Below are positions 1-18,236 of a stretch of 64,000 bases of DNA, one piece after another. The notes under the pieces were generated by a model, which was not told the DNA's origin, did no database searches, and saw only the letters and a program-made list of their open reading frames with translations. The stretch lies in assembly GCF_001886715.1 (NCBI RefSeq), contig NZ_CP018082.1, forward strand, positions 3,844,001-3,908,000, given 5' to 3'. The position numbers and the translations under genes were made by a program. Numbering within the stretch: position 1 is the stretch's first letter; every line of letters begins with the position of its first letter. This DNA comes from Nocardia mangyaensis (GTDB taxonomy: Bacteria; Actinomycetota; Actinomycetes; Mycobacteriales; Mycobacteriaceae).

Positions 1-485
1 ATGACGCCTTTCGGCTCGCCGGTGGTGCCTGAGGTGAAAATGACATAGACCGAGTCCGCCGAGGCCACTGTGGCGGGCCGGAATCCTGACGTGTCCGCAT
101 CGGCTATTACTGCGTCGACGTCCAGTACCCCTGCACCGGCGACTTCGTCGGGGTCCGAGGCGGTCGCGAGCACGAGGGGTGCACGGCACTGGTCGATGAT
201 GCGTCGGCGGCGTGCTGCCGGATACCGCCGGTCGATCGGCACGTAGGCTGCGCCGATCTTGATGACAGCCAGCGCCGCGATCACCAGCTCGAAAGACCGG
301 TGCGCCACGATCGGCACCAAACTACCTCGGGGAATGTGCCTTTGCCGCAACCGGGCGGCCAGCCGGTCGCTGAGCTCGTCGAGATCCTGATACGTCAAAT
401 GCTGTCGAGGCCCCACGACTGCACGCGCGTTCGGCTGCTCGGCGACCTGCTGACGGAAATGATCGAGAATGGAGTTCTGCGTCAT
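1..485 (-). CDS. NRPS-type adenylation (AMP-binding) protein, N-terminal part; continues beyond the left edge
   Basis: The 161 residues visible are the start of an ANL-superfamily adenylation domain of the amino-acid-activating (NRPS) type, which makes an acyl-AMP and loads it on a carrier protein. The ATG at 485 is preceded by AAGGA about nine bases upstream. Visible are the A2-like stretch KIGAAYVPIDRRYP near residue 78 and, at the very edge, the A3 phosphate-binding loop TSGTTGEPKG. There is no condensation domain ahead of it, so this is either a free-standing A protein or a loading module. The catalytic lysine region and any carrier domain lie outside the window. It is the last gene on the minus strand after the XRE regulator, 300 bases downstream of that gene's stop, with two palindromes in the gap. 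Substrate cannot be predicted because the specificity pocket is missing. Confidence 0.85.
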   Translation of the reverse strand, partial: MTQNSILDHFRQQVAEQPNARAVVGPRQHLTYQDLDELSDRLAARLRQRHIPRGSLVPIVAHRSFELVIAALAVIKIGAAYVPIDRRYPAARRRRIIDQCRAPLVLATASDPDEVAGAGVLDVDAVIADADTSGFRPATVASADSVYVIFTSGTTGEPKGV

Positions 486-785: not shown

Positions 786-2039
786 TCAGCCGAGGCCGGC
801 GAGGTTCGCCAGCCGGGTGACATCTCTGCTGATCAACCGATTGTCGCGGCGGATCAGGTGCAGCACGGTGTGGTGGGCGTCCGGGTCGAATCGAAGGTCT
901 TCCGGGCAGGCCTCGGCGGCTTTAGCGAGCGCGAATGCGGCTGCCACGTCTTCGTCGCGGCGGGCGAAGGCGATGGCCAGTGCGATGTGGTAGCGAGCCC
1001 GGCCACCGACCGGATATCCTTCCACGACCTCGGCATCTGAACCGATTCGGACCACGTCGTCGAAGCTGGCATGCCCCAGGGCGATTTCCATTCGCGCCAG
1101 CGCTATCTGGAACGGCCCGAAGTCGATCCCGAACACCTGATGCTCTGACGCCAGCTCTGCGGCCTCCCGCTGCGCCTGGCCTATGAGCCGGTCGGCTTCG
1201 AGCAGATCGAGAGTCGCGGCCGCCCCTTTGGCAGCCAATAGAGCCAAGGTCCCCGACAGCACGGCCCGGTCCCCGGGGTCGACTACCTCGTCGAGTAGAT
1301 GGGTTGCCGCGGACCGGGCGTAGCTTCGGCACTGATCGATCTGCTCCAGATGCAGCAGTGCGTTTGTGACGTGGCAGGCGCTGGCGGCGACCAAGCCCGG
1401 CGAGTGCGTGGATGCTGCGATCTCCATTGCCCGATCGGCTACGGTCCACGCCAGGCCGTGTTCGCCGAATCGGGTGAGAAGCTGGCGCGCCAAGTGATAG
1501 GCGCGCACCAGAAGCTGGTCCGTCTCGAGTCCGGCGAGCCGAAGCTTCCTTGCCCGGGCCTCGGCGAGAATACTCGGTATCCGCTCCACCAAAGTGGAAT
1601 ATCGTCGAGGTGAGGTCGTCCAAGCGTGCTGACATTGCGAGAGTTCATCCCGTATAGCCGTCAGCGATTCGCCCTTCTCTGTCAACGCCCCCGCGGCATG
1701 GAATTTCGGATGGTCGACGATCGCCTGTTCCAGGAGCTCTGTCATAGGCCGGGCAGCCGCGGTACTTCCGCGAACCTCGCGGACCGGTCGTTCGATCAAT
1801 TGGTTGAAGTCGTCGATCCGCAAAACCTCGGCGAGTCGGCTCATGACCTGCACGCTATCGAGGCGTTGCCGCCCCGATTCAACGAGGCGCAACCATTCGT
1901 CGCTGCGACCGACCAGGTTCGCCACCACCGAGCGTGAAAGTCGGCGTTGCACACGGTACATTTCGATCCGCTCTCCGACGGTCAGTCCGCTGCGCTGAGG
2001 TCCTTCGAGGGCATCCATCGCGCTCCCTGCATCGTCCAC
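786..2039 (-). CDS. XRE-family transcriptional regulator with long C-terminal helical domain
   Basis: A 417-residue protein with an N-terminal Cro/C1-type helix-turn-helix (residues about 20-75; GERIEMYRVQRRLSRSVVA then GRSDEWLRLVESG) and a long, alanine/leucine-rich C-terminal part of paired helices resembling TPR-like sensor regions. Actinomycete regulators of this build often sit beside secondary-metabolite genes. The GTG start at 2039 is supported by GGAGGT six bases upstream; an ATG at 2018 preceded by AGGGAG is a weaker alternative. It lies on the same strand as the adenylation gene at the left edge and could act on the palindromes at 614-654, but that link is only positional. Confidence 0.75.
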   Translation of the reverse strand: MDDAGSAMDALEGPQRSGLTVGERIEMYRVQRRLSRSVVANLVGRSDEWLRLVESGRQRLDSVQVMSRLAEVLRIDDFNQLIERPVREVRGSTAAARPMTELLEQAIVDHPKFHAAGALTEKGESLTAIRDELSQCQHAWTTSPRRYSTLVERIPSILAEARARKLRLAGLETDQLLVRAYHLARQLLTRFGEHGLAWTVADRAMEIAASTHSPGLVAASACHVTNALLHLEQIDQCRSYARSAATHLLDEVVDPGDRAVLSGTLALLAAKGAAATLDLLEADRLIGQAQREAAELASEHQVFGIDFGPFQIALARMEIALGHASFDDVVRIGSDAEVVEGYPVGGRARYHIALAIAFARRDEDVAAAFALAKAAEACPEDLRFDPDAHHTVLHLIRRDNRLISRDVTRLANLAGLG

Positions 2040-2505: not shown

Positions 2506-2954
2506 GTGCTCACGCCTTGGGCGGGCACGACATCCCACGCGAAGCACCACATCCTGACCTGCGGCAACGGGCTCTCGCTCGCGGTCATGCAATCAGCGGC
2601 CAACGTCAACGACCACCTTGTGCTACCCGAACTGCTCGACCGAGTACGGCCGCTTCGAGGACGCCCAGGCCGACCACGTGAGAAGATCACGACCCTGATC
2701 GCGGACAAAGCTACGACTATCCGCGCGTCAACGACCAGCTCGAGCGTCGACCGATCACCGGCTACATCCCACGCCGCGGCACTCGCGACAAGGTCACCGC
2801 CGGCCGCTGGATCGTCGAGCAAACCCTGGCCTTGCTGCACCAATACCGACGGTTGGCCATCCGCTGGGAACGGCGCACCGACATCCACCAAGGATTCCTC
2901 GACCTCGCTTCTGCGTTGATTTGCTGGCGACGACTCAGCAATCGAACCCGATAG
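2506..2954 (+). pseudogene. IS5-family transposase remnant (C-terminal part, frameshifted)
   Basis: The plus strand gives SAKHHILTCGNGL-type sequence (here HAKHHILTCGNGL), then NVNDHLVLPELLDRVRP and RGRPGRPREK, typical of the central part of IS5-group DDE transposases. At about 2708 one base is missing relative to the expected DKGYDYPRV. After that shift the frame continues with RWIVEQTLALLHQYRRLAIR and ALICWRRL, the normal C-terminal block with the catalytic Glu, ending at TAG 2952. The N-terminal half is absent, so the element cannot be active. Confidence 0.75.
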
Positions 2955-3152: not shown

Positions 3153-3998
3153 TCAAGTTCGCGTGTTCGTCCTGCCGTGCAGCTCTCTTGCCAGGTCATG
3201 GGCCGCTTCCAGACCTTGACTCGTGGCGCGTACCGCATTCAGTCCGGCAGTGTCGGCTGCGCCACCGATGACGCGGTGTGGGATGTCGAGACTGGTGAGG
3301 GCCCTGAGTAACCCGTCGTTGCGTTCTTGTCCCGCTGCGAGGATCACGGTGTCGGCTTCGATGAACTCGTGCCCGCGCTCGGTCGCTACCAGCACGCCCG
3401 TGTCGGTGATCGCGCGATAGTTCACGCCGGTGATCATGCGTGCTCCTCTATGGCGTAGGGCACCAACAGCGACCCAGCGTGTGGTGAGACCGATTCCCGC
3501 GCCGATCTTCCCGGTTCGCCGCATCAACGTCACCGATCGCCAGGGCTGCGCCTGCACCGGTTGACGATCGAGACCCCATTCGGCGCGGAACGAGGCCCCG
3601 CGTGCCCCGACCCCCTTAGTGGCGTTGTCCAGCAGCAGATGTGCGAGGTCGACAGCGATACCTCCTGCACCGATGATCACCACGCGCCGCCCTATAGCCG
3701 CGGGATCGCTGAATGCCCGACGATAGTCGAGCACTCCTGGGCTCTCGATGCCGGGCAGATCCGGTGTGCGGGGCAGCACGCCGGTAGCGAGCACCACGGC
3801 GTCGTTGTCGGTCAGTTGCCCGGCATCAACGATCGGGGCGCCGAGGCGGACATCGACTTCGGCCTCGTGCAGCATGGTGGCGAAGTAGCGGATCGTCTCA
3901 CCGAAATCCTCTTTGCCCGGCACCGTCCTGGCCATCCGGAACTGGCCGCCGAGCTCGTTTCCGGCTTCGTGCAACGTGATTCGATGGCCCATGTTTGC
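3153..3998 (-). pseudogene. FadH/2,4-dienoyl-CoA-reductase-like flavoprotein, C-terminal fragment cut off by IS630
   Basis: This is the C-terminal 281 residues of the flavoprotein whose N-terminal part lies at 5191-6448. It starts at the codon split by the insertion and reads LANMGHRITLHEAGNELGGQ, the second strand of the FAD-binding Rossmann fold, then RRVVIIGAGGIAVDLA (the NADPH-binding fold) and ends in TVILAAGQERND, as in FadH and trimethylamine dehydrogenase. In the present DNA the fragment has no start codon or ribosome site of its own and is preceded by the antisense strand of the transposase. With the element removed, the two parts join in frame to a 701-residue protein, close to the roughly 670 residues of E. 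coli FadH. Confidence 0.85.
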
Positions 3999-4000
3999 TA

Positions 4001-5188
4001 GTGCCTCGTCCAGGAAGGTTGCCCTGGTAACCGGGTGTCGAGTTGATCGCGCGCCCGCGACCGGAGATGCTCCCCGGTGGAGGTGGTGCCGGTGGCCAGG
4101 AAACCGGAAGTGTTTGTGCGAGAAGTGACCCCGGACGAGGGCCGCCGACTGCAGAAGATCACGAAGACGAGCAAACAACCGATCAGGATGCGGCGTGCGA
4201 TCGTGGTGATGGCCTCGGCGCACCGCCAGCCGGTCCCCGCGATCGCGAGGTTGATGCAGGTCAGCGAAGCCTATGTGCGGCAAGTGATCCACGACTTCAA
4301 CGAGCGGGGGTTCGACGCGTTGGACCCAAAATGGAGCGCGGGCAGACCGAGCAAGGTGGACCGGGCAACGCGTGAACGCATTGCCTGTATCGCCCGGTGC
4401 TGCCCGCGAGACCTCGGCTGGCCGTTCTCGGCCTGGAGCTTGTCGAAACTCCGAGAAGTGTTGGCCACCAACAACATCGCTGAGATCAGTCGTGAGACTC
4501 TGCGCAAGCTCTTGAAGGCCGAGGGTGTGTCGTGGCAGGCGGTCAAGACCTGGAAAGCCGGCACCGATCCCGAGTTCGCCACCAAGATGGACCGCATCCT
4601 CGACCTCTACGACCACCGGCCTGCTGACGGGCGGGTGGTCTGTGTCGATGAGTTCGGGCCGTTGAACCTGCAACCTCGTGCTGGTCGAGGCTGGTTTCCG
4701 CGGCGTAAGCCGAGACGGTTGCGGGCGACATATCACCGCACTCAGGGTGTTCGGCACCTGCTCGGTGCCCTGGATCTGGCGACGGGGAAGATCCATTACC
4801 GGATCCGGGACCGGAAGCGGTGGCAGGAGTTTCTCGGGTTGCTGAAGTCGCTGCGAGCCCGGTGGCCAGGTGAGAGGCTCTACGTCATCGCCGACAACTT
4901 CTCCCCGCACAAGCGGGCCGAGGTCCGGGACTGGGCCGCCGATCATGATGTGGAGTTGGTGTTCTTGCCGACGTATTCATCGTGGTTGAACTGGATCGAG
5001 TCCGAGTTCGCGGCGCTGCGCTACTTCGCGCTCAACGGCACCGATCACCGCAGCCATGGTGAACAGGACGCCGCGATCGGTGCCTACATCCGCTGGTACA
5101 ACCAGCACGCCCGACCCAAGCGGGACTTCGCCGTCAACTCCAAGATCCGGCGACCGGATTACCTACCGAAGGTTGCTTGACGAGGCAC
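4001..5188 (+). mobile_element. IS630-family insertion sequence, 1188 bp, inserted in the FadH-like gene
   Basis: The element is flanked by TA duplications at 3999-4000 and 5189-5190, each inside CTAG, the classic IS630/Tc1 target. Its ends are inverted repeats: the first ten bases GTGCCTCGTC are perfect at both ends, followed by ten bases with six matches. It contains one transposase gene on the plus strand, opposite to the host gene. Excising the element plus one TA rejoins the host frame exactly (GLVAALS joined to LANMGHR), showing a recent clean insertion. Confidence 0.92.
4077..5180 (+). CDS. IS630-family transposase
   Basis: A 367-residue DDE transposase. The N-terminal helix-turn-helix region (about residues 45-90, PVPAIARLMQVSEAYVRQV) is followed by a linker with RGFDALDPKWSAGRP and the DDE domain. 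The catalytic acids are visible: Asp in VVCVDEFGP (near residue 192), Asp in YVIADNFSPHKR (near 285) and Glu in SSWLNWIESEFAAL (near 315). Length and motifs are intact, so the enzyme may still work. The GTG at 4077 is the first possible start; later GTG codons a few residues in are alternatives. The stop at 5178 lies just inside the right inverted repeat. It is only distantly similar to the second IS630-type transposase at 28507-29610. Confidence 0.92.
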   Translation: MEVVPVARKPEVFVREVTPDEGRRLQKITKTSKQPIRMRRAIVVMASAHRQPVPAIARLMQVSEAYVRQVIHDFNERGFDALDPKWSAGRPSKVDRATRERIACIARCCPRDLGWPFSAWSLSKLREVLATNNIAEISRETLRKLLKAEGVSWQAVKTWKAGTDPEFATKMDRILDLYDHRPADGRVVCVDEFGPLNLQPRAGRGWFPRRKPRRLRATYHRTQGVRHLLGALDLATGKIHYRIRDRKRWQEFLGLLKSLRARWPGERLYVIADNFSPHKRAEVRDWAADHDVELVFLPTYSSWLNWIESEFAALRYFALNGTDHRSHGEQDAAIGAYIRWYNQHARPKRDFAVNSKIRRPDYLPKVA

Positions 5189-5190
5189 TA

Positions 5191-6448
5191 GCGACAGCGC
5201 TGCGACCAGCCCCGCGGGTCCGCCGCCGACCACGGCGATGCGCCTTTTGTGGGTGCCCCCTCGGGCTGCCGAAAGACTACGCTCGCTCGGCTCAGCGGGC
5301 TGCCCGGTCTGCGCCGTGGCGGGATGGGGGAAATCGAGTTCACGCCCGGCACGGGGATTGACCAGGCACGAGACTGCAGTGTCCCCGATTGAGCGGTCGA
5401 TGCATTCGTTGCAGGCGATGCAGATGTTGACCGCATCGGCTTGGCCGGAACGTGATTTGCGCACGATCTGCGGATCAGCCAGGAACGGCCGAGCCATCGA
5501 GACGAAGGCGATCCGCCCGTCGGTCAGGATTTGCTCGGCGTGCTCCACGCGGTTTATCCGATTGGACGCGATCACCGGCACGTCGACGCCGGCAGTTCGG
5601 ACGGCGTTGTTAATCATCCTGGCATAAGGTACCCATACCCCGGGCGGTACCAGTGCCTGCACTGTCGGCACTTTGGCTTCGTGCCAACCCACGCCGACAT
5701 TGATCGCGTCAACGCCCGCGCGCGCCAATGCGACAGCGAAATCGGCGATCTCGTTGCTGGTGCTCGAGCCCGGCATCAAATCATTCCCGGAGATTCGAAA
5801 GATCACCGGTAAGCCCGTCGTCTCCTTGATCCTGCGCAACAGTTCTAGCGGGAAGCGTAGTCTGCGTTGTGCGTCGCCGCCCCATCCGTCGTCTCGCTGG
5901 TTGGTGATCGGGGACAGGAACTGATTGATCAGATATCCTTCCGATCCCATGACCTCGATCGCGTCGAATCCCAAGGTTGACACGATGTCGGCGGCGTGTG
6001 CGAAATCGGTCAATGTCTGCTGAATCTGTTTCTCGGACATCGCCTCCGGCATGCACCGCGAGAACCCGCTGTATTGTGCCGAAGGCGCCACCGGTGTCAG
6101 ACCGAAGGCGGATTCGAACCCGTAGCGGCCGGCGTGGAAGAGTTGGGCGGCGATCCGCGCGCCGCCCTGGTGCACGGCCGTGACTGCTCGTGACAGCGCC
6201 TGTTGGTGTGGGTGCTCGGTGATCACGGCGTACATTCGTCCGCCCGCACCGACTGTGTTCACTGCGATCCCGCCAGTGATGATCAAAGACGCGCCCGCGT
6301 GGGCGCGTTCGGCGTAGAAGGCCGCGAGGGAGGCGCCCTGGTCGTCTCGCGCCTCGAGATTGAGGTGCATCGATCCCATGATCAGCCGGTGGTCGAGTTC
6401 AAGCGACCCGATCCGGCCTGGTTGCCAAACATGATATATAGGCGTCAT
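5191..6448 (-). pseudogene. FadH/2,4-dienoyl-CoA-reductase-like flavoprotein, N-terminal fragment cut off by IS630
   Basis: The first 420 residues of an NADH:flavin oxidoreductase of the FadH/trimethylamine-dehydrogenase type: an OYE-like FMN barrel (residues 1 to about 330, with HAGRYG and GFDAIEVMGSEGYLINQF), a 4Fe-4S ligand set in CIACNEC followed 11 residues later by CLVNP, and the start of the FAD fold (VVGGGPAGLVAALS). The CxxCxxC spacing is like trimethylamine dehydrogenase rather than E. coli FadH (CxxCxxxC). The IS630 at 4001-5188 stops it; the frame runs about ten foreign residues into the element. Start ATG 6448 has GGGGGA upstream. It follows the SDR by 32 bp, so it was the last gene of the pathway operon; by analogy it would reduce a conjugated diene of a cyclohexadiene-carboxyl-CoA intermediate. 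Confidence 0.85.
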
Positions 6449-6480
6449 TCACGTCCCCCGAGCGATCCCTCGAGCACCGG

Positions 6481-7293
6481 TCAGGGAGTGGGACGATCGG
6501 GAAGGTTGAGAGGGGGCTCGACGTCGTCGAAGAACGGCGGAGCGGCGATGCTCAGGCCGCCATCGACGACAATCGTCTGGCCGGTGATGTATTCCGAGCC
6601 GGAGGACAGCAGGAACGCACAGGCGTCGGCGACCTCCTGAACCGTGCCCGCTCTACGTTTCGGAATCCGATCCAGCACCGTCTGCATGGGTGCCATTCCT
6701 GGCACGTCGTAGAAGAACTTCAGGGAGTCCGACTCGATGAGCCCGCCGCTGATCGCGTTCACGTTGATGCCGTATGGCGCGAACTCGACGGCCATGTAGC
6801 GCACCCACGCCTCGACTGCGGCTTTCATCGCACCCAGTGTCGAGTATGTCGGGTAGGCGCGGGTGCTGCCGTAGGAGGTCAGTGTGAGGATTCTTCCCCC
6901 GCGGTCCATGAGCTTGACCGCTTGCTGGGCGCCGAGCACGAAGGACCGCATGTTCATGGCGTATGAGCGGTCCAGGTGATGTGGTTTCAAGTCCACGATG
7001 TTCTTGAAGGCGCTCGCGGCAGCATTGGCTACGAAGTAGTCCAAGCGTCCGTATTCCGCTGTGACAGTGCCGAATAGGTCGGTGATTCCCTGCTCGGTTT
7101 CGATGTCGGCCTGGACCGCGAATCCCTGTCCGCCGAGCTCGGCAATATCGGTGACGACGTTCTCGGCGAGGCCGGTGTTCTTCTTGTAGTTGACTACGAC
7201 GGTGCCGCCTTGTGCGGCCAATGTCAGGGCAAGGGTTCTGCCGATGCCTCGCGAGGAACCGGTGATCAGGGCGATCTTGTTTTCGTGGGACAT
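6481..7293 (-). CDS. SDR-family enoyl reductase, FabL/ChcA-like
   Basis: A 270-residue short-chain dehydrogenase. The cofactor motif TGSSRGIG is at residues 11-18, NAAA near 90, and the catalytic Tyr-x6-Lys is YSTLGAMK near 150. The segment NAISGGLIESDSLKFF is characteristic of FabL-type enoyl-ACP reductases; ChcA (1-cyclohexenylcarbonyl-CoA reductase of cyclohexanecarboxyl-CoA biosynthesis) is also an SDR enoyl reductase. AAGGAG sits eight bases before the ATG. The gene starts 13 bases after the acyl-CoA dehydrogenase stop and precedes the flavoprotein by 32 bases, so it belongs to the same operon. Context favours reduction of a cyclohexenyl-carboxyl-CoA; an ordinary fatty-acid enoyl reductase or unrelated SDR cannot be excluded. 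This gene itself is intact. Confidence 0.8.
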   Translation of the reverse strand: MSHENKIALITGSSRGIGRTLALTLAAQGGTVVVNYKKNTGLAENVVTDIAELGGQGFAVQADIETEQGITDLFGTVTAEYGRLDYFVANAAASAFKNIVDLKPHHLDRSYAMNMRSFVLGAQQAVKLMDRGGRILTLTSYGSTRAYPTYSTLGAMKAAVEAWVRYMAVEFAPYGINVNAISGGLIESDSLKFFYDVPGMAPMQTVLDRIPKRRAGTVQEVADACAFLLSSGSEYITGQTIVVDGGLSIAAPPFFDDVEPPLNLPDRPTP

Positions 7294-7306
7294 GTGTCGA
7301 ACTCCT

Positions 7307-8482
7307 TCAGGGCGGATGTGCCTGCGCGAATTTCTGCAGTTCTCGAAAGACGATCATCTTCTGAATCTCGTTGGTTCCCTCCTCGAACCGTTGCGCGCGG
7401 GCGTCGCGGTACACACGCTCGATCGCGCTGGTTTTCCAGTAGCCGATACCGCCGTGTACCTGAAGTGCTCGGTCGGTGACACGGGTGAGCATTTCGACCG
7501 CGTTGAGCTTGGCCATGGAGGAAAGCTGGGCCGCTCGCGTGCTTCCGGCGTCCCATTCGCGGGCGGCATGCAAAGTCAACTGTCTGGCCGCCTCGATATC
7601 GGTTTCGTTTTCCGCGAGCATGAACTGAATCGCCTGCCGGGTAGTGAGCGTCTTGCCGAAGGTGACGCGGTGGCTGGCGTACTCATGGGCCAACTCTTGC
7701 GCGCGGCACGCCAATCCGACGCAACTCATGGCCACCGAGATCCGCGACGGTGTCAGGAATCCGCCCAGAGCCACGGCCAACCCATCGCCTTCGGCGCCGA
7801 GGCGATTGGCCATGGGCACCGGTGCCGCGGTGAAGAGCATGCGGGCGTGATCGGTCCCTGTCACACCCATCGTTTGCGAGGTGTCCAGGACATTGACCCC
7901 GGGTACGTCGCGAGGGACCATCAGCGCGATGGTGCCCTCGTGACCGGAGGAGCCGGCGAGTCGGGCGGTCAGTAGCCAGTAGTCGCACCGCACACCGAAG
8001 GTGATCAGGTGTTTCTCCCCGGAAAGGTAGTAGGTGTCACCGTCTCTGGTCGCGCAGCAGGTGATGTCGGCACCGGTGCCGTTGCCCGGTTCGGTCAACG
8101 CGAACGCGACTCTGCTCGTGCCCGCGACCGTCGGCCGGACGAACAGATCGCGCTGGTGTTCGGTGGCGAACGGGTCCATCGCCCGCCAGGTGCCGTTGAC
8201 CACGTGCACGATCATTCGGACCGAGGCGTGCGAGCGGGAGAAGACCTCCATCAGGCAAACCCATTGCTCGAAGCTCAATCCTTTGCCGCCCAGGCGTTTG
8301 GGTGCGGCCAAGGACAGGTACCCGCGTTCGCGCAGTTCAGTCCACAGTCCGTCATCGACCGTCCCGGTCGCCTCGATGCGCTCGGCCCATTCCTCACCGG
8401 GGCCCCGCACCCATTCGGTGATCTCGGTGAAGAGTGTGTTGTATTCACCAGCGGGGTTCGCCGAATCTGACGTTGCTGACAT
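7307..8482 (-). CDS. Acyl-CoA dehydrogenase domain (C-terminal part of a three-domain fused frame)
   Basis: About 391 residues with the full acyl-CoA dehydrogenase fold: N-terminal helices, the flavin loop FALTEPGNGTGADI, the middle beta domain and a C-terminal helical domain ending with FEEGTNEIQ, whose first Glu-Gly-Thr region carries the usual catalytic base. It would introduce or remove a double bond alpha-beta to a CoA thioester, using FAD. The segment has no stop before it: the frame is continuous with the CoA ligase upstream and with the EPSP-synthase-like domain before that. ATG 8482 (MSATSDS) is a possible internal start but has only a weak AGGTG ahead, so independent translation is uncertain. 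Natural substrate inferred from context to be a cyclohexyl/cyclohexenyl-CoA ester. Confidence 0.82.
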   Translation of the reverse strand: MSATSDSANPAGEYNTLFTEITEWVRGPGEEWAERIEATGTVDDGLWTELRERGYLSLAAPKRLGGKGLSFEQWVCLMEVFSRSHASVRMIVHVVNGTWRAMDPFATEHQRDLFVRPTVAGTSRVAFALTEPGNGTGADITCCATRDGDTYYLSGEKHLITFGVRCDYWLLTARLAGSSGHEGTIALMVPRDVPGVNVLDTSQTMGVTGTDHARMLFTAAPVPMANRLGAEGDGLAVALGGFLTPSRISVAMSCVGLACRAQELAHEYASHRVTFGKTLTTRQAIQFMLAENETDIEAARQLTLHAAREWDAGSTRAAQLSSMAKLNAVEMLTRVTDRALQVHGGIGYWKTSAIERVYRDARAQRFEEGTNEIQKMIVFRELQKFAQAHPP

Positions 8483-10198
8483 CGTGGACACCTGTTCGTC
8501 GTTCGCGTCGGTTCGGGCACAGTGCTTGGCCATTTCTCGGAGCACATGCTTCTGGGTTTTCCCTGCGGCATTGCGTGGCAGGAGGTCGATCAACTCGAGG
8601 TGCTCGGGCCAGTAGTGTTGCGCGACCTGGTGTTCGCGGAGGTAGCTGACCATGTCGTGGAAGGTGAGGTCGGTGCCGGGGTTAAGGACGGCGAAGGCGC
8701 AGGCCCGTTCGCCCAGTCGCTGATCGGGCATCGCGACGATCGCGACGTCGTCGATGCTGGGGTGCTCATGGAGGAGGTTCTCGATCTCTACGACCGGGAC
8801 CTTCTCCCCGCCTCGGTTGATGACGTCTTTGACCCGGCCGGTGAGGTGGACGAAGCCTGCCTCGTCGATGACCGCCAGGTCCTCGGTCCGATACCAGCCG
8901 TCGGTCGTGAATGCTTGCCGTGTCAGGTCCGCCCGCCCGAGATAGCCCTGGAAGCAGGTGGGGGAATCGATTTCGAGGTTTCCCTCGGTGCCGGGTTCCA
9001 GCATGGTCCCTTCGTCGTCGGTGATCCGTAGCTGGACCCCGTTGAGGGCTCGCCCATCGGTTCCCCAGGCGTGGCTCGGTGGATCGCCGGGTGCGCTCAA
9101 CGCAGCCAGACAGGTTTCGGTGGTACCGAACGCACCGCATACCGCGGCGCCGAGCACTTGGCTAGCGCGCTGGGTGAGCCCTCGGGGGACGGCGGCCCCG
9201 GTGACGACGAAGATCCGCAGCGAGGCGGGTGCGGGTGCACCGGCCTCTACCGCCTTGACAAGGTCAGACAAGAACGGTGTCGCTGCTTGGACGAAACTGC
9301 CCCTGTACGCGGACAACGCCTCGAGTGCGCGGTGCGGATCCCATCGGGCCTGAAGGATCTGCGGCACCCCGAGTTCCACAGCAACGCACATTCCGTAGAG
9401 GAACCCGGTCTGGTGCGCCAATGGGCTGGGGATGTGGATGACGTCGGTGCTGTTGAGTCCGAGGTGTTCGATCTCCATCGATGCCGCACGCGCCAGTGTA
9501 CGGCCGGTCATCAGTGAGCCTTTCGGCTCGCCGGTGGTCCCGGAGGTGAACAGCAGCTGGGCGATGCTGTCCGGGTCGCAGGTGCGGTGTGGGAGCGGCG
9601 CATGATCGATTCGGCCCCGCAGAAGTTCGTTCCAGTCGTGCCAGGCGACGGTGTTCGGCATCGGGGCTCGGCTATCAAGGGGTATCGCGGGGAGCACGAT
9701 CACATGCCGCAGATCCTGTGGTGTGCCACGCCGCGGGTTGGTGAGCATGTGGGCGATCGCGGTGGTGTAGTCGCGGCTACGGAAGCGGTGGGGGACGAAC
9801 AGTACCCGCGCCTGGGTGCGCCGGAGCATGAATCCGATTTCGCGTTCGCCAAGAATCGGCATCAGCGGAGTGCAGATCGCCCCGATGCGCATGGTGGCCG
9901 CGGCGATGATCACGAATTCGGTCCGGTTCGGCAGTTGCAGCGCCACCGGCTCACCGGGCTGCACACCGAGCTTGATCAACGCGCTGGCTAGCGCGTTGAT
10001 CAGGGAGTCGAGTTCAGCCCAGGTCGTGACCCTTCCTGCTGGGCCAGTATCGACCACCGCGACATCGTTCGGTCGCTGCTTAGCCCATTGACTCACCCGA
10101 TCCGGCAGCGTGCACTGCGCGCCGATCCTCGCGCGGGCGTCCTGGCGGGGTTGCGTGTGCGGTTCGGCTTGGAGTGGTTGTTCTCGCTCGACGCTCAT
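8483..10198 (-). CDS. Acid-CoA ligase domain, cyclohexanecarboxylate-CoA-ligase-like (middle part of fused frame)
   Basis: About 572 residues of an ANL ligase. Core motifs are all present: phosphate loop FTSGTTGEPKGS, GAFGTTET, the adenine/ribose region YRTEDLAVID with the hinge GRVKDVINRGGEKV, and the C-terminal catalytic lysine in RNAAGKTQKHVLRE. It makes an acyl-AMP and then the acyl-CoA of a carboxylic acid. Overall look is that of medium-chain or alicyclic acid ligases such as cyclohexanecarboxylate-CoA ligase, which fits neighbours that reduce alicyclic CoA esters. ATG 10198 (MSVEREQ) is a possible start but lies inside the EPSP-synthase frame with only a weak GGA ahead, and no stop separates the two domains. 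Confidence 0.85.
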
Positions 10199-10893
10199 TG
10201 CGATTCCGAAGCCGTTCATTGTCTCCAAGTACGTCGGGTAGGAAATTCTGTACGCGTTCGGATAGGTCAGCCTCGACTCGCCTCGACTCGCCGAGGCGGC
10301 GATCGCCAGTGACATGAGAACCCGATGATCGTTGAACGAGGACAGTCTGGCCCCCACCAACCCACCCACTCCGCGCACGCGCAGCACGTTTCGGTCCAGG
10401 GTGAGGTCGGCGCCCATCTTGTTGAGCTGGAGCATGGCCGAGACCCGATCCGACTCCTTGAGCCGGACGTGCCCGATATTGGAGAAGGTGCTTTCACCGT
10501 CGGCGAAGGTGCTCATCACCGACAGAATCGGGAGCATGTCCGGGATTGTGCGACAGTCGACATCGGTGGGCCTGAGCCGGATTCCGCTATGAGCGATCCG
10601 CACGCCCCCGACGGTGGGTTCCATGGGCACACCCATTTCTCGGGCGATCTCGAGGAACCTCATCTCCGGGTGGTCCACCGCAGAACCAGCGAGCTGGGTC
10701 AATCCACGCAGCACGACATCGCCTGGGTGCAGGGCAGCAGCCGCAACGCCGAAGGCGGCCGATCCGATGTCGGGGGGCATCACCAGATCACACGGGATCG
10801 GTAACTGATCGGGTTCGATCTCGAACCGACCCCAGTTCGGGGTGGCATGCACCGTAAGCCCGAAATTCTGCATCATCGCGATGGTCAGTTCGA
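10199..10893 (-). pseudogene. EPSP-synthase-like domain, C-terminal half (separated from its N-terminal half by IS481)
   Basis: This half starts IELTIAMMQNFGL directly after the duplicated target and shows the C-terminal EPSP synthase signatures TIPDMLPI (catalytic Asp, D313 in E. coli), HVRLKESDRV (E341 and R344) and FNDHRVLM (R386). The lysine that binds PEP (K411, in AKTFP of E. coli) aligns by eye to Ile in RISYP. In the present sequence the half is in frame with the IS481 transposase, so any translation yields a transposase-led hybrid rather than a working enzyme. Downstream it runs without a stop into the CoA ligase. Confidence 0.85.
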
Positions 10894-10899
10894 TATAGG

Positions 10900-11896
10900 T
10901 GTATGAGGCCATGACGTTGGTGACGCCTCTGCGGAGGCGGCTGGCTGGTGGCCGGTTCCCGGCAGCCGAATGTGGTCGATGGTAGTTGTAGTGGATGTTC
11001 CAGATGCCGAGGGCGTGGGCTCGTTGGTGTTCGGATGTCCATTCGCGGGCGTAGAGGAACTCCTCGGCCAGGATCCGGTTGTAGCGCTCGACCTTGCCGT
11101 TGTGACGCGGCGTGTATGGCCTGATGCGTTGGTGGCGAGCGCCACGCAACGCCTTGGCGAAGTCTGCGGCGCGGTAGCAAGAGCCGTTGTCGGTCACGAT
11201 CCGCTCGAGGAAGACGATGCCGTGTGCACAGAAGAACGCTCGCGCCCGGTCCATGAATCCCTGTGCGGTCGCGGATTTTTCGTCGTCGAGGGCTTCGGTG
11301 TAGGCCAGCCGCGAGAACCCGTCGACCGCGGAGTGCAGATAGACGTATCCGGCTTTGGCTCCTCGCTTCTTGGCAGCTGCGGCGGCCTTGGCCTGGGCGG
11401 AGTCGCGGCCGTGAGCCCGCCAGCCGCCACCGTCGGGAATGCGCCCGACCTTCTTCACGTCGACATGGACCATGTGCCCTGGCCGCTTGGCCACGATCCG
11501 GCGTGGTGAGCGATTGTTCTCACCGGTCGGGTCGATGAACCGGCGTCGGTTCAAGCCCAGGTTGAGCAACTGCCTGGTCACGGTCCTGACCGCGATATCG
11601 ACACTGTCACTACGTAGTTCGTGCGCGATTCGTCTGGCCGGCCACTTCTTGTCGCGGCGCATCTTCTCGATCCGGCGGGTCACCTCGACTGATGTGGCCC
11701 TCGGTTGATGATGCGGCGTGCTGGAACGCTCGGCCAGGCCCAACGCACCGAACCGGCGGTGCCGGTTGACCCATTTCGAGGCGGTTTGACGTGAAATGCC
11801 CATCTCGGCAGCGACGTGAGCGATCGGGCGGGTCTGGCAGCGCTGCACCAGGCGGCGACGACCTTCGATGGACAGTGGGGCGTTACGGTGGGTCAC
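10900..11896 (-). CDS. IS481-family transposase, no own stop codon, reads through into host gene
   Basis: About 330 residues: N-terminal helix-turn-helix (AHVAAEMGISRQTASKWV, residues 25-43), then the rve/DDE core with Asp in HVDVKKVGRIPDG, Asp in IVTDNGSCYRA and Glu in HNGKVERYNRILAEE. GTG 11896 is the start used. The frame ends the element as NVMASYT and, because of the six-base duplication, continues in frame into the EPSP-synthase half, the ligase and the dehydrogenase, giving an open frame of 1529 codons down to 7307. The protein is otherwise full length and probably still folds as a transposase with a very long tail. Confidence 0.88.
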
Positions 11897-12013
11897 GGAC
11901 GGGTCTTCCCGGTCGAGCGGACGGAGGATGTGGTGTTTTCCATCCTGCCGCCGGGAGATCCGTCCCCTCAGCTCACCCCTGTCCGGGCGTCAACAACCTC
12001 ATGACCCACAACA
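10900..12013 (-). mobile_element. IS481-family insertion sequence, 1114 bp, inserted in the EPSP-synthase-like domain
   Basis: Six-base target duplications TATAGG lie at 10894-10899 and 12014-12019. The ends form an imperfect inverted repeat of about 28 bases (21 matches), each beginning TGT. One transposase gene runs on the minus strand, the same direction as the host gene. Removing the element plus one TATAGG gives a continuous host reading frame (GELNEQPY joined to IELTIAMM), matching normal EPSP synthase order. Confidence 0.93.
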
Positions 12014-12593
12014 TATAGGGCTGCTCGTTCAGCTCACCCTGTACCTCGATCACAGTGGGGCCAGTGGCGAACGGCGCCAGCAGGATCAGACCCGAGATCC
12101 ATTGCGAGAGGGTTCCCGCGATCTGCACCCGTCCCCCCGTAGGGCGCTGGGCGGCCACCCGGATCGGCGGGCACCCATCACTGGACTCGACCAGCACACC
12201 CATCTGCCCCAACGCGCGCAACAGCGGCTCGACCGGCCGCCGCCGGAAAGCCTTGTGCGCGTCGACTACCACCGGGCCCTGGGCCAACGAGGCCAGGCCG
12301 ATCATGAAGTAGAGAGTCGTTCCGGAGCTGCCTGCAGAGACGGTCTCACGCAGGGGCCGGTAGGGGCCCCCATGAACGAGGTAGGTATCGCCGTCGATCT
12401 CGATTTCGGTGCCCAGGTTGCGGAGCAGGGCGAGGGTGTACTGCACGTGGCGCGCTTTCGACAGCCCGGTGATTCTGCTGATGCCCGGCGCCAAGGAGGC
12501 AAGGATCAATGCGCGGTGGACATGATATTTCGATCGGGGAACGAGGGCCTCGCCCGTCAGGCGATGAGGCTTGCCTTCGACACGTAGATACAT
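12014..12593 (-). pseudogene. EPSP-synthase-like domain, N-terminal half (cut by IS481)
   Basis: ATG 12593 has GGAG eight bases upstream and is preferred over an upstream TTG at 12632. The half shows EPSP synthase features SKYHVHRALILASL (K22 and R27 kept, S23 changed to Tyr), SSGTTLYF (where E. coli has NAGTAMR, so Asn94 and Arg100 are changed), RRRPVEPL (R124 kept) and LSQWISGL (S170, Q171 kept). It then reads GELNEQPY and is broken. The joined domain would have about 425 residues, as in E. coli AroA (427). It begins 49 bases after the DAHP synthase stop. Altered substrate residues suggest a specialised, non-canonical AroA homologue rather than the housekeeping enzyme. Confidence 0.85.
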
Positions 12594-12642
12594 AGACCCG
12601 ACTCCAACAACTCGTGTGAGACCACTTGTCAACAGCGCTCGG

Positions 12643-13734
12643 TCAACGCTGACGTTTGGACCGGCGCGGGATTGTTCGGGTTCTCGATCGTGCCGCGGCG
12701 GCGAGTTCGGTCAGTACTTCGGCGGTCGTCGACCAGCTCATGCACTGATCGGTGATGCTCTGACCACGTATCAGCGGTTGTGTAGCCACCGCGTTCTGGG
12801 TGCCGGGCGACAGAAAACTCTCCAACATGATCCCGCAGACCGCGGTATCACCAGTGGCGATTCGGTCGGCGATGTCATGGGCGACCACACGCTGGCGTTC
12901 ATGGCTTTTGTCGCTGTTGGCATGGCTCGCATCGATAATCAGCCGCTCAGGCAGACCGGACGCTGCAAGAATCCGATACGCCTCTCGTTCGGCTTCGAGG
13001 TGATAATTCGTGCCGCTCCTGCCGCCGCGCAGTACCAGATGGCAATCAGGATTTCCCGCAGTATGCCTGAACGCCACAGTACCCTCGGGGGCCATGCCGA
13101 TCCATGGTTGTGGGTGCGAAGCCGTGAGGATCGCGTTGACGGCGGCGGCTATCGAGCCATCAGTTGCGTTCTTCATTCCGACAGGCATCGGCAAACCGCT
13201 GGCGAGTTGCCGATGAATCTGCGATTCCACAGTTCGGGCACCAATGCATCCCCATGAGACCAAGTCGTCCAGATACGCCGGCCCGACCGCGCTCACCCAT
13301 TCCATAGCGATCGGCAAACCCAGGTCCGTAATCTTCATGGAAATAGATCGTGCCAATGCGAACCCACGCGCCGGATCGGCGTGACCGAAAACATCCGGAA
13401 CTATCGCCATCCCCGGCCATCCCGATGCGGTCCGCGATTTCTCGAAATAGGTTCGCATCACTACGGCCAGGTCGTCGGAGAGTTCCCGAGAAACCAAGGC
13501 GAGCCGTTCAGCGAACTCGATAATGGCTTCACTGTCATGCACCGAGCAAGGTCCGACTATAACGAGCAACCTCTTGTCATTGCCGCACAAAATTTGCCGT
13601 ATCGCAGTGCGTCCATAGTTGACGGTGACTGCCGAAGTTTCTGTAATTTGTCGCGCCGCACGCAGATTGTTAGGGCTAGGCAATCTTTCCCACACCGTTG
13701 GTTGCCGGGAGAGTCCTTCTTCTGTCACACACAT
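12643..13734 (-). CDS. 3-deoxy-7-phosphoheptulonate (DAHP) synthase, class I (AroF/G/H type)
   Basis: A 363-residue enzyme condensing PEP and erythrose-4-phosphate, the first step of the shikimate pathway, in the cytoplasm with a divalent metal. Signatures of the class I alpha family are clear: VIVGPCSVHD (residue about 57), RTYFEKSRTASGWPG, SWGCIGARTVESQIHREL-like sequence, GNPDCHLVLRGG and IIDASHANSDK, ending with SITDQCMSW. Actinomycetes normally use a class II enzyme for primary metabolism, and class I copies are often placed in secondary-metabolite clusters to raise shikimate supply. It sits between the methyltransferase and the EPSP-synthase-like gene on the same strand. The ATG at 13734 lacks a clear ribosome site; the GTG two codons on is an alternative. 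Confidence 0.92.
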   Translation of the reverse strand: MCVTEEGLSRQPTVWERLPSPNNLRAARQITETSAVTVNYGRTAIRQILCGNDKRLLVIVGPCSVHDSEAIIEFAERLALVSRELSDDLAVVMRTYFEKSRTASGWPGMAIVPDVFGHADPARGFALARSISMKITDLGLPIAMEWVSAVGPAYLDDLVSWGCIGARTVESQIHRQLASGLPMPVGMKNATDGSIAAAVNAILTASHPQPWIGMAPEGTVAFRHTAGNPDCHLVLRGGRSGTNYHLEAEREAYRILAASGLPERLIIDASHANSDKSHERQRVVAHDIADRIATGDTAVCGIMLESFLSPGTQNAVATQPLIRGQSITDQCMSWSTTAEVLTELAAAARSRTRTIPRRSKRQR

Positions 13735-13901
13735 AGGGCAATCTCGCCTTCGGGAGACATCGTCGCTTCGCTACGAAATCAGGATGGTGACGAGCCTGTT
13801 CGATCGGACCGAATCCATCACTGCGGAATCGAGCTTCCGTCACAATGGCTGTCTGCGAAGTTCTCGCTTCGACAACCGCTGCCGCCGATCACTCGAAGCC
13901 G

Positions 13902-14798
13902 TCAGCGTAGGTGAACTTCCATGAAGGTCATGACATCGTCTGGGTCCCGATGGAGGGTGATCGTGTCGATACGGTCGGTCGCAACCTCGCTCAACAGTGC
14001 GCGCATGTCCTGCTCGTCCCTGTGCACGAGCGGCCAATCCATCACCGCCTCGAGTAGGGCGGCATCGCCGAACCCCCGCACGATGTTGGCGATGTGCAGA
14101 ACCCCGCCAGGTGCGAGAGAGTCGATCAGGCATCGCGTCAACGGGATCGCGGTGCGCTCGGTCAGATAGTCGTACAGACCGCCGGCAAGTATCAGATCTA
14201 CCTGCTCAGCGATGGATCCCTGCTCGCAGATCCCTCGCACCGAACTATGGACAGGGATCACCCCGTAGTCCTTCTCGGCCACGTGGAGTGAATCCAAGTC
14301 CTGGTCCACCGCGAAGTAACTTTTCAAGGTGCCGCTCCGGACCGCGGTACTACCGTGGGCCTCCCGCGCGTGCCCCGCGCCTACCGATGCCACCCGAGCA
14401 TCAGTTCTCCGTGCCGACACCGCATCTACCGCCGAACTGAAAAGTTGTCTCCGATATCGAACTGCCCGAAATGGTGGGATATCGCAGCCGTAGGTGAAGA
14501 GCTCAGCACTAAATCCTTCGAGGCTCGGCAGGTCGCTCCCGATGCCGTAAATCATGTCCATTGTCACCGCATCGCCTGGATAGCCGCGAGGCTTGCGGAA
14601 ACTCCGTCCGATGAGCGGGTCCTGGCGTAATAGTTCCGACAATGCATGGGATGAGGTCAGCACCCGTACCCTATACCAGTCGGCAGGCGTGAGGAAACGC
14701 CGCTGATCCCTGAGCCAATCACGAACCCGATCGAGCGGGTCGACCACCTGACCTGCGATCAGTTCGGTAAATGCCTTATCGAGAATGGATATATCCAA
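13902..14798 (-). CDS. SAM-dependent methyltransferase, PhcB/EF-type
   Basis: A 298-residue class I methyltransferase. The N-terminal part contains FRKPRGYPGDAVTMDMIY, typical of the family that includes PhcB (3-hydroxypalmitate methyl-ester signal synthesis), followed by the SAM-binding glycine loop ASVGAGHAREA near residue 135, and an acidic strand FAVDQDLDSL. I chose TTG 14798 as start because GGAGG sits seven bases upstream; the frame stays open to a GTG at 14870 with no ribosome site. It is the most upstream gene of the DAHP synthase/EPSP-like operon, with a 167-base gap to the DAHP synthase gene. Substrate unknown: a carboxyl or hydroxyl group of the pathway product, or a signal, are possible. 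Confidence 0.75.
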   Translation of the reverse strand: MDISILDKAFTELIAGQVVDPLDRVRDWLRDQRRFLTPADWYRVRVLTSSHALSELLRQDPLIGRSFRKPRGYPGDAVTMDMIYGIGSDLPSLEGFSAELFTYGCDIPPFRAVRYRRQLFSSAVDAVSARRTDARVASVGAGHAREAHGSTAVRSGTLKSYFAVDQDLDSLHVAEKDYGVIPVHSSVRGICEQGSIAEQVDLILAGGLYDYLTERTAIPLTRCLIDSLAPGGVLHIANIVRGFGDAALLEAVMDWPLVHRDEQDMRALLSEVATDRIDTITLHRDPDDVMTFMEVHLR

Positions 14799-15235
14799 AG
14801 CCCAGCCTCCAGCTCCTATTACGATTGCAGCTGTTTCGCAGCGTAAATATTCGGTGACGCAGATTTGCACACGGAAAGCGAAGAATTGCCGACGAGCCGA
14901 TAGGCGCAGAAGGGTCAGCAGGTGATGATCTCAACATTTGCATGAACACCGATTTGACCGCCATTGGTCCTGCATCCACTATATCCGCTGACAGGCCGAA
15001 ACGGAAGGGGTTATCGCCGGTCAGGAACACAACCTTCGCCTGATTCGGACCCGATAAAACAGACTAGTCTGGTCGACAATTCCGACCATGGAACTCGGTG
15101 ACGGGTGGTCGGCTCCCCCGGTCCGCCGTACGCGTCGACAGCCTGAATCACATCAGCAGGCCGATACTGAGTAGACGACTACCTGCGCCTCCCCTTCCGT
15201 CCACCAGCGGCGCGCCACTGCTCACAAGTGACCTT
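14799..15235. other. Non-coding stretch upstream of the methyltransferase
   Basis: About 440 bases with lower GC than the flanks. It should contain the promoter of the minus-strand methyltransferase operon. The only dyad seen is a five-base repeat GGTCG/CGACC around 15070-15087. No gene or RNA recognised. Confidence 0.5.
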
Positions 15236-15612
15236 TTAGTTCGCCCCACCTGTCCCGTCCACGATCAGCACCGCACCACGCGGGAACCGGGTGCGGGGCC
15301 GTAGCGCCAACGCTGGTCCGAGGTCCTCGATCACCGGGGCGGCGGCTGATTTCGAGACGCCGAACACGGCCGCGATTTGCCGCATTGTGAGTTTGTTCGC
15401 CAGTAGGCGGCCACCAGCAGCACCCGGTCTCCGAAGCACAAGCCCCCGGTCGGCCGCGCGGGCGGTCAGCGCCCTCGCGGCCGCAACTGTGTGATCAGGC
15501 GAGCGAACGTGGCTGGCCGCAGCCCGGAGAACAACTCCACCATCACCGGGTCAGCTGCTGAGATCACCACCGGTGAGCGGTACCTGTTTCTGCTCAACGA
15601 CTTACGAGACAT
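15236..15612 (-). pseudogene. IS5-family transposase remnant (N-terminal part, frameshifted)
   Basis: Reads MVELFSGLRPATFARLITQL in one frame, then after a shift near 15460 LLVAAYWRTNLTMRQIAAVF and FGVSKSAAAPVIEDL, ending GAVLIVDGTG: the N-terminal helix-turn-helix and the first catalytic Asp of IS5-type transposases. It stops at 15236, so the catalytic core is missing. Its 5' end overlaps the last bases of the cupin gene. Confidence 0.65.
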
Positions 15613-16003
15613 CCCTTGGTGCAGGTCGGCTCGGTGGCAACACTTGCACGGCGGGCGGGGCACCGGCGGGCAAAAGATACGTCGCGATCATGCGGACAGG
15701 CCGGTCGCCCAGGTTGCGGCCGTCATGGATCCATTCCGGATCCCCAGGTTCGACCAAGGCCTCACCGGCACGATACTTGCGCGACCCACCATCCGGTCGA
15801 CATTGCGTCACCTCGCCTTCGAGGACGATCACGATGACCGGTCCGGGGTGGTAGTGCCATCCGGTGCCCTCGCCCGGCATGATGGTGACGTCACGCACCA
15901 GCACCTCCATCTCACCGAACGCGGCTATGGCAAGTCCTTCCGCGCTGTATCCGAAGGCAAGTTCGGTTGCATGGAAGCCTGATTCGGGACTCTTCTCGAT
16001 CAC
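15602..16003 (-). CDS. Cupin-domain protein
   Basis: A 133-residue single-domain cupin. The metal-binding motif 1 is GEGTGWHYHPGPVIVIVLEGE (first half GEGTGWHYHPG) and motif 2 is PGDPEWIHDGRNLGD. GTG 16003 overlaps the stop of the TPP enzyme as GTGA, with GGAG nine bases upstream, so the two are translationally coupled. Such small cupins act as isomerases, oxygenases or binding proteins; no substrate can be named. The 3' end abuts an IS5 remnant, so the last few residues may have been altered by that insertion. Confidence 0.8.
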   Translation of the reverse strand: MIEKSPESGFHATELAFGYSAEGLAIAAFGEMEVLVRDVTIMPGEGTGWHYHPGPVIVIVLEGEVTQCRPDGGSRKYRAGEALVEPGDPEWIHDGRNLGDRPVRMIATYLLPAGAPPAVQVLPPSRPAPRDVS

Positions 16004-17754: not shown

Positions 17755-18236
17755 CGTATTGCTCCGATCCCGCACCCGCGGACGTCAATGTCGGCGCTTT
17801 TCAAGCGTTGAGTTCTCGGAAGGGCACTGCGGCGACTTCCCTCGAGCCCGAGGACTGGACGAGAGCATCAACACAGCCCAGATAGGCGAGTGACGGAAGC
17901 CATGTTGTCCCGCCCAGAAGTAGCTCGGGGGTTCACGCCGCGGCCGGTTGTGCGACAGAGGCATCGTCGTGGACCTCAGTCAAACTTTCCGGTGCCGTTG
18001 TGCGTTCCGACGGTAAACCCCGCAGCTCTCATCAAGACCAAACCTTCAGCATCAGCGCTGACGCCGGTCCGGGACCAATGAACAGCCGGCATGGGTGCCC
18101 AACGCCCGACCCGTTTCGCGCGCCAAACCGCTCTGTGATCCCGCGCCAAACCGCCTGAGACCCTATCCTGGATGGGACAGGGTGAACCACCCCGAGCTTG
18201 GTGCCCACCTTCTTTCTTCGGAAGGATGGGCAGATC
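17755..18236. other. Non-coding stretch at the island edge
   Basis: No coding frame is convincing. A 13-base direct repeat CGCGCCAAACCGC occurs at 18119-18131 and 18142-18154. The last 60 bases lead into an IS3-type OrfA remnant and probably belong to its left end. The first bases should hold the promoter of the TPP enzyme gene. Confidence 0.45.

Follow-up and report, generated by a model that had tools for sequence, protein, structure and literature searches.

Organization of the locus

We analysed a 64,000-nucleotide stretch of the Nocardia mangyaensis genome (the window; C1:3844001-3908000 of a 7.31-Mb single contig) that holds a candidate cyclohexanecarboxyl-coenzyme A (CoA) cassette. The cassette families occupy 3153-14870, all on the minus strand. 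From right to left they run as a methyltransferase-like gene, a class I 3-deoxy-D-arabino-heptulosonate 7-phosphate (DAHP) synthase, the N-terminal half of a 5-enolpyruvylshikimate 3-phosphate (EPSP) synthase domain, an insertion sequence (IS), the EPSP-synthase C-terminal half with a CoA ligase and an acyl-CoA dehydrogenase, a short-chain dehydrogenase/reductase (SDR), and a flavoprotein whose N- and C-terminal parts are separated by a second IS. Pfam matches to DAHP_synth_1, EPSP_synthase, AMP-binding, acyl-CoA dehydrogenase, SDR, Oxidored_FMN and Pyr_redox_2 all exceed the gathering cut-offs, bearing out the enzyme families and the common strand given by an initial annotation of this DNA. 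That annotation missed both elements, however, and listed the ligase and dehydrogenase as separate open reading frames (ORFs), whereas they share one open frame with the EPSP-synthase C-terminal half.

13902..14870, minus strand: methyltransferase-like protein, 322 aa, first gene of the block (names of relatives; no Pfam or NCBIfam match)
12643..13734, minus strand: class I DAHP synthase, AroFGH type (PF00793, DAHP_synth_1, E 1e-65; TIGR00034 above cut-off)
12014..12593, minus strand: EPSP-synthase domain, N-terminal half, of a JK-type fusion (PF00275 positions 3-194; tblastn to relatives)
10900..12013 (10894-12019 with duplications), minus strand: IS481-family element, transposase frame from 11896 (PF13011 LZ_Tnp_IS481, rve)
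8540..10899, minus strand: EPSP-synthase C-terminal half, then cyclohexanecarboxylate-type CoA ligase (PF00275 185-417, PF00501, PF13193)
7307..8482, minus strand: acyl-CoA dehydrogenase, PlmL type (PF00441/PF02770/PF02771, E 1.1e-37)
6481..7293, minus strand: SDR enoyl-CoA reductase, ChcA type, uninterrupted (SDR Pfam E 4.5e-62; named relatives)
5192..6448, minus strand: 2,4-dienoyl-CoA reductase-like flavoprotein, PlmM type, N-terminal part, comprising Oxidored_FMN and the start of the next domain (PF00724, E 4e-63)
3998..5191, plus strand: IS630-like element, transposase 4077-5180 (PF13358 DDE_3)
3153..3997, minus strand: flavoprotein C-terminal part, Pyr_redox (PF07992, Pyr_redox_2, E 1.3e-15; tblastn to relatives, adjoining the N part)

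Two insertion elements interrupt cassette genes

The EPSP-synthase domain is cut in its middle by the IS481-type element, and the flavoprotein is cut in its Pyr_redox part by the IS630-type element, which lies on the opposite strand. Both were identified by transposase domains, end repeats and further genomic copies, and the IS481-type element also by a target duplication. The 6-bp duplication CCTATA flanks the IS481-type element on both sides; two further genomic copies (78% identical) have 6-bp duplications of their own, CCTAGC and CCTAGG. Its end repeats are imperfect, as judged by eye, and were not reported by an automated repeat search. The IS630-type element has two genomic copies at 99.7 and 99.9% identity, plus one at 78%. 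CTAG stands at each end of the window copy and of its two near-identical counterparts, the ends being inverted.

Both insertions look clean, since the N- and C-terminal matches abut in relatives. The two EPSP pieces overlap by 6-30 bp in 6/6 loci and the two flavoprotein pieces by 3-6 bp in 4/5, the fifth (L060) showing a 99-bp gap. An in-frame Met at 12593 agrees with the relatives.

The IS481-type transposase lacks a stop codon of its own. In two of the three copies (L064 and L065) its frame extends up to the end of the element, and TAG is supplied by the target duplication, CCTAG-. The window duplication, CCTATA, provides no stop, and the transposase frame therefore reads on through the EPSP-synthase C-terminal half, the ligase and the dehydrogenase as a single 1529-aa ORF. 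The six relatives all have a stop codon at the end of the fusion and encode the dehydrogenase in another frame, whereas in the window no stop intervenes and only about 20 residues separate the conserved ligase end from the dehydrogenase Met.

An EPSP-synthase/CoA-ligase fusion

The two EPSP_synthase pieces (Pfam E 1e-31 and 2.5e-40) are followed by an AMP-binding domain (E 1.8e-70), so that an EPSP-like and a ligase domain stand in the order of the fusion, though the first is split. A search with residues 330-1529 of the ORF (8000 candidates scored, E 1e-3) gave 808 matches. The best 120 consist of the window's own 970-aa record, which covers ligase and dehydrogenase, and 119 others, and all 119 are proteins of 977-1048 aa with EPSP_synthase, AMP-binding and AMP-binding_C domains. 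The best match among those listed is a protein from a Microlunatus metagenome-assembled genome (69% identity over 66% of the query). In trees the window proteins group with the clade that holds Microlunatus, with support of 1.0 for the EPSP C-terminal half plus ligase and 0.99 for the SDR. Among the matches listed, Microlunatus soli and soil-metagenome proteins provide the closest named SDR (81%) and the closest fusion clade (66-69%), in which, unlike in the window, the fusion is a stand-alone protein of 995-1004 aa (P0002-P0007).

The Arg of GTAMRP and the Lys of TSKTFP are AroA active-site residues for enolpyruvyl transfer. When the fusion relative from locus L059 was aligned with AroA proteins in the PDB, these positions were occupied by Tyr and Ile; the window pieces carry the same Tyr and Ile, and the genome's AroA-like protein retains Arg and Lys. 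The substitutions are compatible with, but do not prove, a loss of enolpyruvyl transfer. Besides the two halves, the genome has two uninterrupted PF00275 genes, one AroA-like (C1:5466673) and one MurA-like, both assigned by eye, and with an AroA-like gene present elsewhere we rejected a housekeeping aroA at this locus. When genome contigs were scanned with the 1200-aa piece, 28 loci matched, none of them in the EPSP part; 27 match the dehydrogenase region (residue 818 onward), and the remaining one, L027, matches from ligase to dehydrogenase at 26%.

The reductases, the dehydrogenase and the ligase family

The SDR search returned 5296 matches among 8000 candidates scored, and the best 120 include proteins named in the source databases as 1-cyclohexenylcarbonyl-CoA reductase, AsuB3, MycA2 and AnsA2. 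Identities over nearly the full length are 71% to MycA2, 71% to AsuB3 and 73% to AnsA2, and the Microlunatus soli protein reaches 81%. AsuB3, MycA2 and AnsA2 are presumably asukamycin, mycotrienin and ansatrienin cluster proteins. We take all three to lie in antibiotic clusters, whereas no ketosynthase was found in 104 kb around the window SDR. These names and identities place the SDR with ChcA rather than with FabG or FabL, and the comparison with characterized proteins proposed in the initial annotation came out in its favour in one-way searches. Three observations point the other way: the name enoyl-ACP reductase III also occurs among the best 120 matches, the top PDB chain is the FabL-type enoyl-ACP reductase 3oic, and among NCBIfam models FabL scores best, though it falls under its cut-off.

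The dehydrogenase is 67-76% identical to its six relatives. The N-terminal part of the flavoprotein finds 2,4-dienoyl-CoA reductase (1ps9) as its best PDB match. PDB comparisons of the ligase, DAHP synthase and dehydrogenase confirmed the families and nothing more.

Taken alone, the ligase resembles cyclohexanecarboxylate-CoA ligase. TIGR03208 is its best NCBIfam model, under cut-off (446 of 792 bits), and this family is shared with aliA-type ligases; plasmid-borne proteins named AliA match it at 38-40%, and ligase-only relatives (35-49%) occur in the genus and the phylum. The block might then serve degradation of alicyclic or aromatic acids, pairing an aliA-type ligase with a dehydrogenase, rather than biosynthesis. 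We consider this very improbable. The aliA-type plasmid and genus matches span the ligase part only, whereas the window ligase is fused to an EPSP-synthase domain, as it is in 119/119 relatives among the best 120; biosynthetic ChcA-type proteins stand among the SDR's listed relatives, and a DAHP synthase adjoins.

The same gene order in other genomes

Fusion-bearing loci were compared in six genomes outside the genus, taken from overlapping draws. The fusion occurs in 4/246 genomes of one large-genome actinobacterial genus (probably Streptomyces) and in 2/393 other genomes of a class-wide draw. At a threshold of 1e-120 none was found in a phylum-wide draw (395 others) or a family draw (300 others), and four other genomes of the phylum-wide draw match through the ligase part only. 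EPSP-ligase fusion, dehydrogenase and SDR are successive in 6/6 loci, and the flavoprotein adjoins in 5/6. The EPSP pieces, dehydrogenase and SDR are 60-76% identical to their counterparts in these loci, the ligase 54-57% and the flavoprotein pieces 46-58%.

The order plmJK, plmL, ChcA, plmM is published for the phoslactomycin and lactomycin clusters in a paper whose table describes PlmJK as a ligase only (PMC5852498); the window has the same four genes in the same order. The one-strand order JK (EPSP-ligase fusion), L (dehydrogenase), ChcA, M (flavoprotein) is thus common to the window, the six loci (five with M) and the published clusters. Relative to the plm cassette, JK and M in the window are cut by IS elements and ligase and dehydrogenase share one frame; the window also adds a DAHP synthase and a methyltransferase-like gene, and no ketosynthase was found in 104 kb. 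PlmJK itself is, we assume, an EPSP-synthase/ligase fusion. The set co-occurs elsewhere and its matches did not fall into degradation families, the outcome that the initial annotation had named as fatal to its proposal; fatty-acid or steroid degradation was rejected on the relatives and gene order. Among the open-licence literature matches listed, none describes the cassette in Nocardia, a weak sign that it is unpublished.

Some surroundings of the relatives are worth recording. Locus L061 has a ketosynthase III gene and an N-acetyltransferase-family gene before the block, and L084 a long frame of 2584 aa. At L085:4587-16714, in a genome of 2.1 Mb that is 87% complete, an uninterrupted cassette and a ketosynthase gene are neighbours of a proteasome subunit gene, with a pafA-like gene before them and WYL-like regulators after them (by eye), an odd site for a starter-unit cassette.

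DAHP synthase and methyltransferase-like gene

The genome has two PF00793 matches, the window gene and C1:641878. An extra DAHP synthase would increase shikimate supply. As a marker of a special pathway we rejected it, since PF00793 is near-universal in the genus, occurring in 146/148 genomes (singly in 124, twice in 22, the window genome among them, and not at all in 2).

The methyltransferase placed in front of the block by the initial annotation is backed by the names of some relatives, which are called SAM-dependent methyltransferase or 3-hydroxypalmitic acid methyl ester biosynthesis protein; the assignment is weak, the protein having no match in Pfam, NCBIfam or the PDB at E 1e-3. For its second-listed relative, P0242, and for the ChcA-type SDR P0168, the sources are the same and the longest contig measures 74,005 bases in each case, so that the two may share one locus. 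In the six relative loci (10-20 kb each, E 1e-15) neither a DAHP synthase nor a methyltransferase-like match was found.

Probable horizontal gain and surroundings

A tract that starts about 6 kb left of the window and reaches about 18 kb into it has a G+C content of 59-65%, in surroundings of mostly 65-71%; at third codon positions G+C is 0.62-0.79 in the block vs. 0.95 in malate synthase. The block is absent from 17 kb on the matching side of malate synthase in four genus relatives, and at 1e-80 only 1/150 genus genomes, that of the window (G000), has a match with the EPSP part in it; ten others match through the ligase part, at 35-43%. Low G+C, absence beside malate synthase and the single genus match together suggest horizontal gain, and the cassette was probably transferred without its chain-building partner or has since lost it. 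When a relative's region downstream of malate synthase was mapped onto the genome, its 19 matches (65-94% identity) were scattered and did not point to one site, which leaves the left edge of the block without a fixed position. A tRNA scan found no tRNA in 44 kb around the block.

The other features at the left end of the window are as follows.

2506..2919, plus strand: fragment of another transposase, DDE_Tnp_1 (PF01609 E 1.8e-4, slightly under the gathering score)
786..2039, minus strand: helix-turn-helix regulator, 417 aa (PF13560)
1..485, minus strand: beginning of a 990-aa adenylation-carrier-reductase protein, which extends past the left edge of the window (domain matches)

The polyketide synthase that one might look for to the left was not found: four ketosynthase and ketosynthase III queries gave no tblastn match (E 1e-2) in the 64-kb window plus 40 kb leftward (104 kb). 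A decayed ketosynthase beside the cassette was likewise rejected. The adenylation protein of non-ribosomal peptide synthetase (NRPS) type that the initial annotation placed at one end does exist, as an adenylation-carrier-thioester reductase protein of 990 aa in the low-G+C block (window 1-485 plus L009:17513-20000), and it adjoins a region of siderophore type. Left of the block lie this protein, an AMP-ligase, a chorismate-binding enzyme, two ABC transporter proteins, one with a siderophore-interacting (SIP) domain, and an NRPS with a GNAT domain. We take the siderophore region (L009:2393-14404; G000:C1:3826393-3838404) to be mycobactin/nocobactin-like; no tie between it and the cassette was found, and the 990-aa protein is not an obvious user of the cassette product. 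On the other side, at 15602-17775 and still in the low-G+C block, a cupin protein gene overlaps that of an acetolactate-synthase-like thiamine pyrophosphate enzyme on the same strand; the pair has no tblastn match (E 1e-15) in the six relative loci. Further transposase-like pieces (L009:15996-16673 and window 2506-2919) bring the traces of insertion elements, with the IS481- and IS630-type elements, to four in about 24 kb of low-G+C block.

The lack of a ketosynthase match within 104 kb also bears on what the cassette once served. Before the insertions it may have supplied omega-cyclohexyl fatty acid synthesis instead of a polyketide, a role that would sit well with an inactivated cassette and that we hold as a tentative possibility, somewhat less probable than its opposite. 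Microlunatus proteins are among the nearest relatives, and at L085 cassette and ketosynthase gene lie together among proteasome genes. Three loci in all have a ketosynthase gene after the block, L085 and the Streptomyces-like L059 and L062, one of the latter two having two more ketosynthase genes nearby, and a ketosynthase neighbour therefore does not separate lipid from polyketide.

State of the cassette and predicted function

In ansatrienin biosynthesis the EPSP-synthase-like domain dehydrates without enolpyruvyl transfer and the ligase makes the CoA ester; desaturation and enoyl reductions fall to the dehydrogenase, a FadH-like reductase and ChcA. By family identity and this chemistry, an intact set would turn shikimate into cyclohexanecarboxyl-CoA. 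The window set is not intact, with the IS481-type element in JK and the IS630-type element in M. From sequence comparison we conclude that the block is very probably an inactivated copy of the actinobacterial cyclohexanecarboxyl-CoA cassette (JK, L, chcA, M), which would have been gained horizontally and then split in its EPSP domain and flavoprotein by the two insertions. Of the pathway proposed in the initial annotation, the assignment holds, by the SDR names, the fusion relatives and the gene order found elsewhere and in print; that the pathway works does not follow, with two genes cut. With these two genes split, the predicted losses are one reduction and a committed step early in the pathway, which is most likely off, dead at two steps.

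Measured from the clade ancestor, the JK pieces are more distant than their six clade mates (EPSP N-terminal half 0.274 vs. 0.087-0.150; EPSP C-terminal half 0.330 vs. 0.099-0.262; ligase 0.497 vs. 0.219-0.304), and the SDR is unremarkable (0.256 vs. 0.094-0.304). Root-to-tip distances in midpoint-rooted trees are unremarkable throughout, at 0.382, 0.595, 0.681 and 0.398 for the EPSP N-terminal half, EPSP C-terminal half, ligase and SDR (medians 0.467, 0.588, 0.669 and 0.333).

Several observations weigh against an inactivated cassette. The ligase, dehydrogenase and SDR frames are still open. Private changes, counted at sites invariant among about 119 relatives, number 6/192 in the EPSP C-terminal half plus ligase, one of them in an IS-derived residue (other sequences reach 5), 2/62 in the EPSP N-terminal half and 2/94 in the SDR. 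A FadH-like paralogue at C1:1395557 (45%) might also replace the flavoprotein. The pathway could on these grounds still work, if translation of ligase and dehydrogenase began in the transposase frame or at an internal start, the paralogue took over the reduction, and another enzyme or both halves together performed the EPSP-like step. The 1529-aa frame is indeed stop-free from the transposase start through the EPSP C-terminal half, ligase and dehydrogenase, and conserved sites are mostly retained. We nevertheless regard a working pathway as unlikely, given an EPSP domain cut in the middle, a flavoprotein severed from most of its Pyr_redox part and, besides the halves, only the AroA-like and MurA-like genes as uninterrupted PF00275 members.

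For the inactivated cassette, the open frames and few private changes imply that the loss may be recent. Acceleration appears to be at most mild, with no sign of general ruin, and the near-identity of the IS630-type copies agrees with a recent event. A further idea, which we consider improbable, is a new form of the pathway in strains of this species that are free of the insertions. There a single JKL fusion polypeptide would combine the EPSP-synthase-like, ligase and dehydrogenase activities and, together with a dedicated DAHP synthase and a partner resembling carboxyl methyltransferases, would give a Nocardia-like host a lipid or ester derived from cyclohexane rather than a polyketide.

Implications

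The locus would extend the range of the cassette to a Nocardia-like host with no ketosynthase found nearby. To claim a working pathway here would mislead genome miners, and the two insertions deserve annotation. The in-frame junction of ligase and dehydrogenase offers a cheap test case for enzyme fusion. A cassette apparently caught while decaying through insertion elements bears on how starter-unit cassettes move and die.

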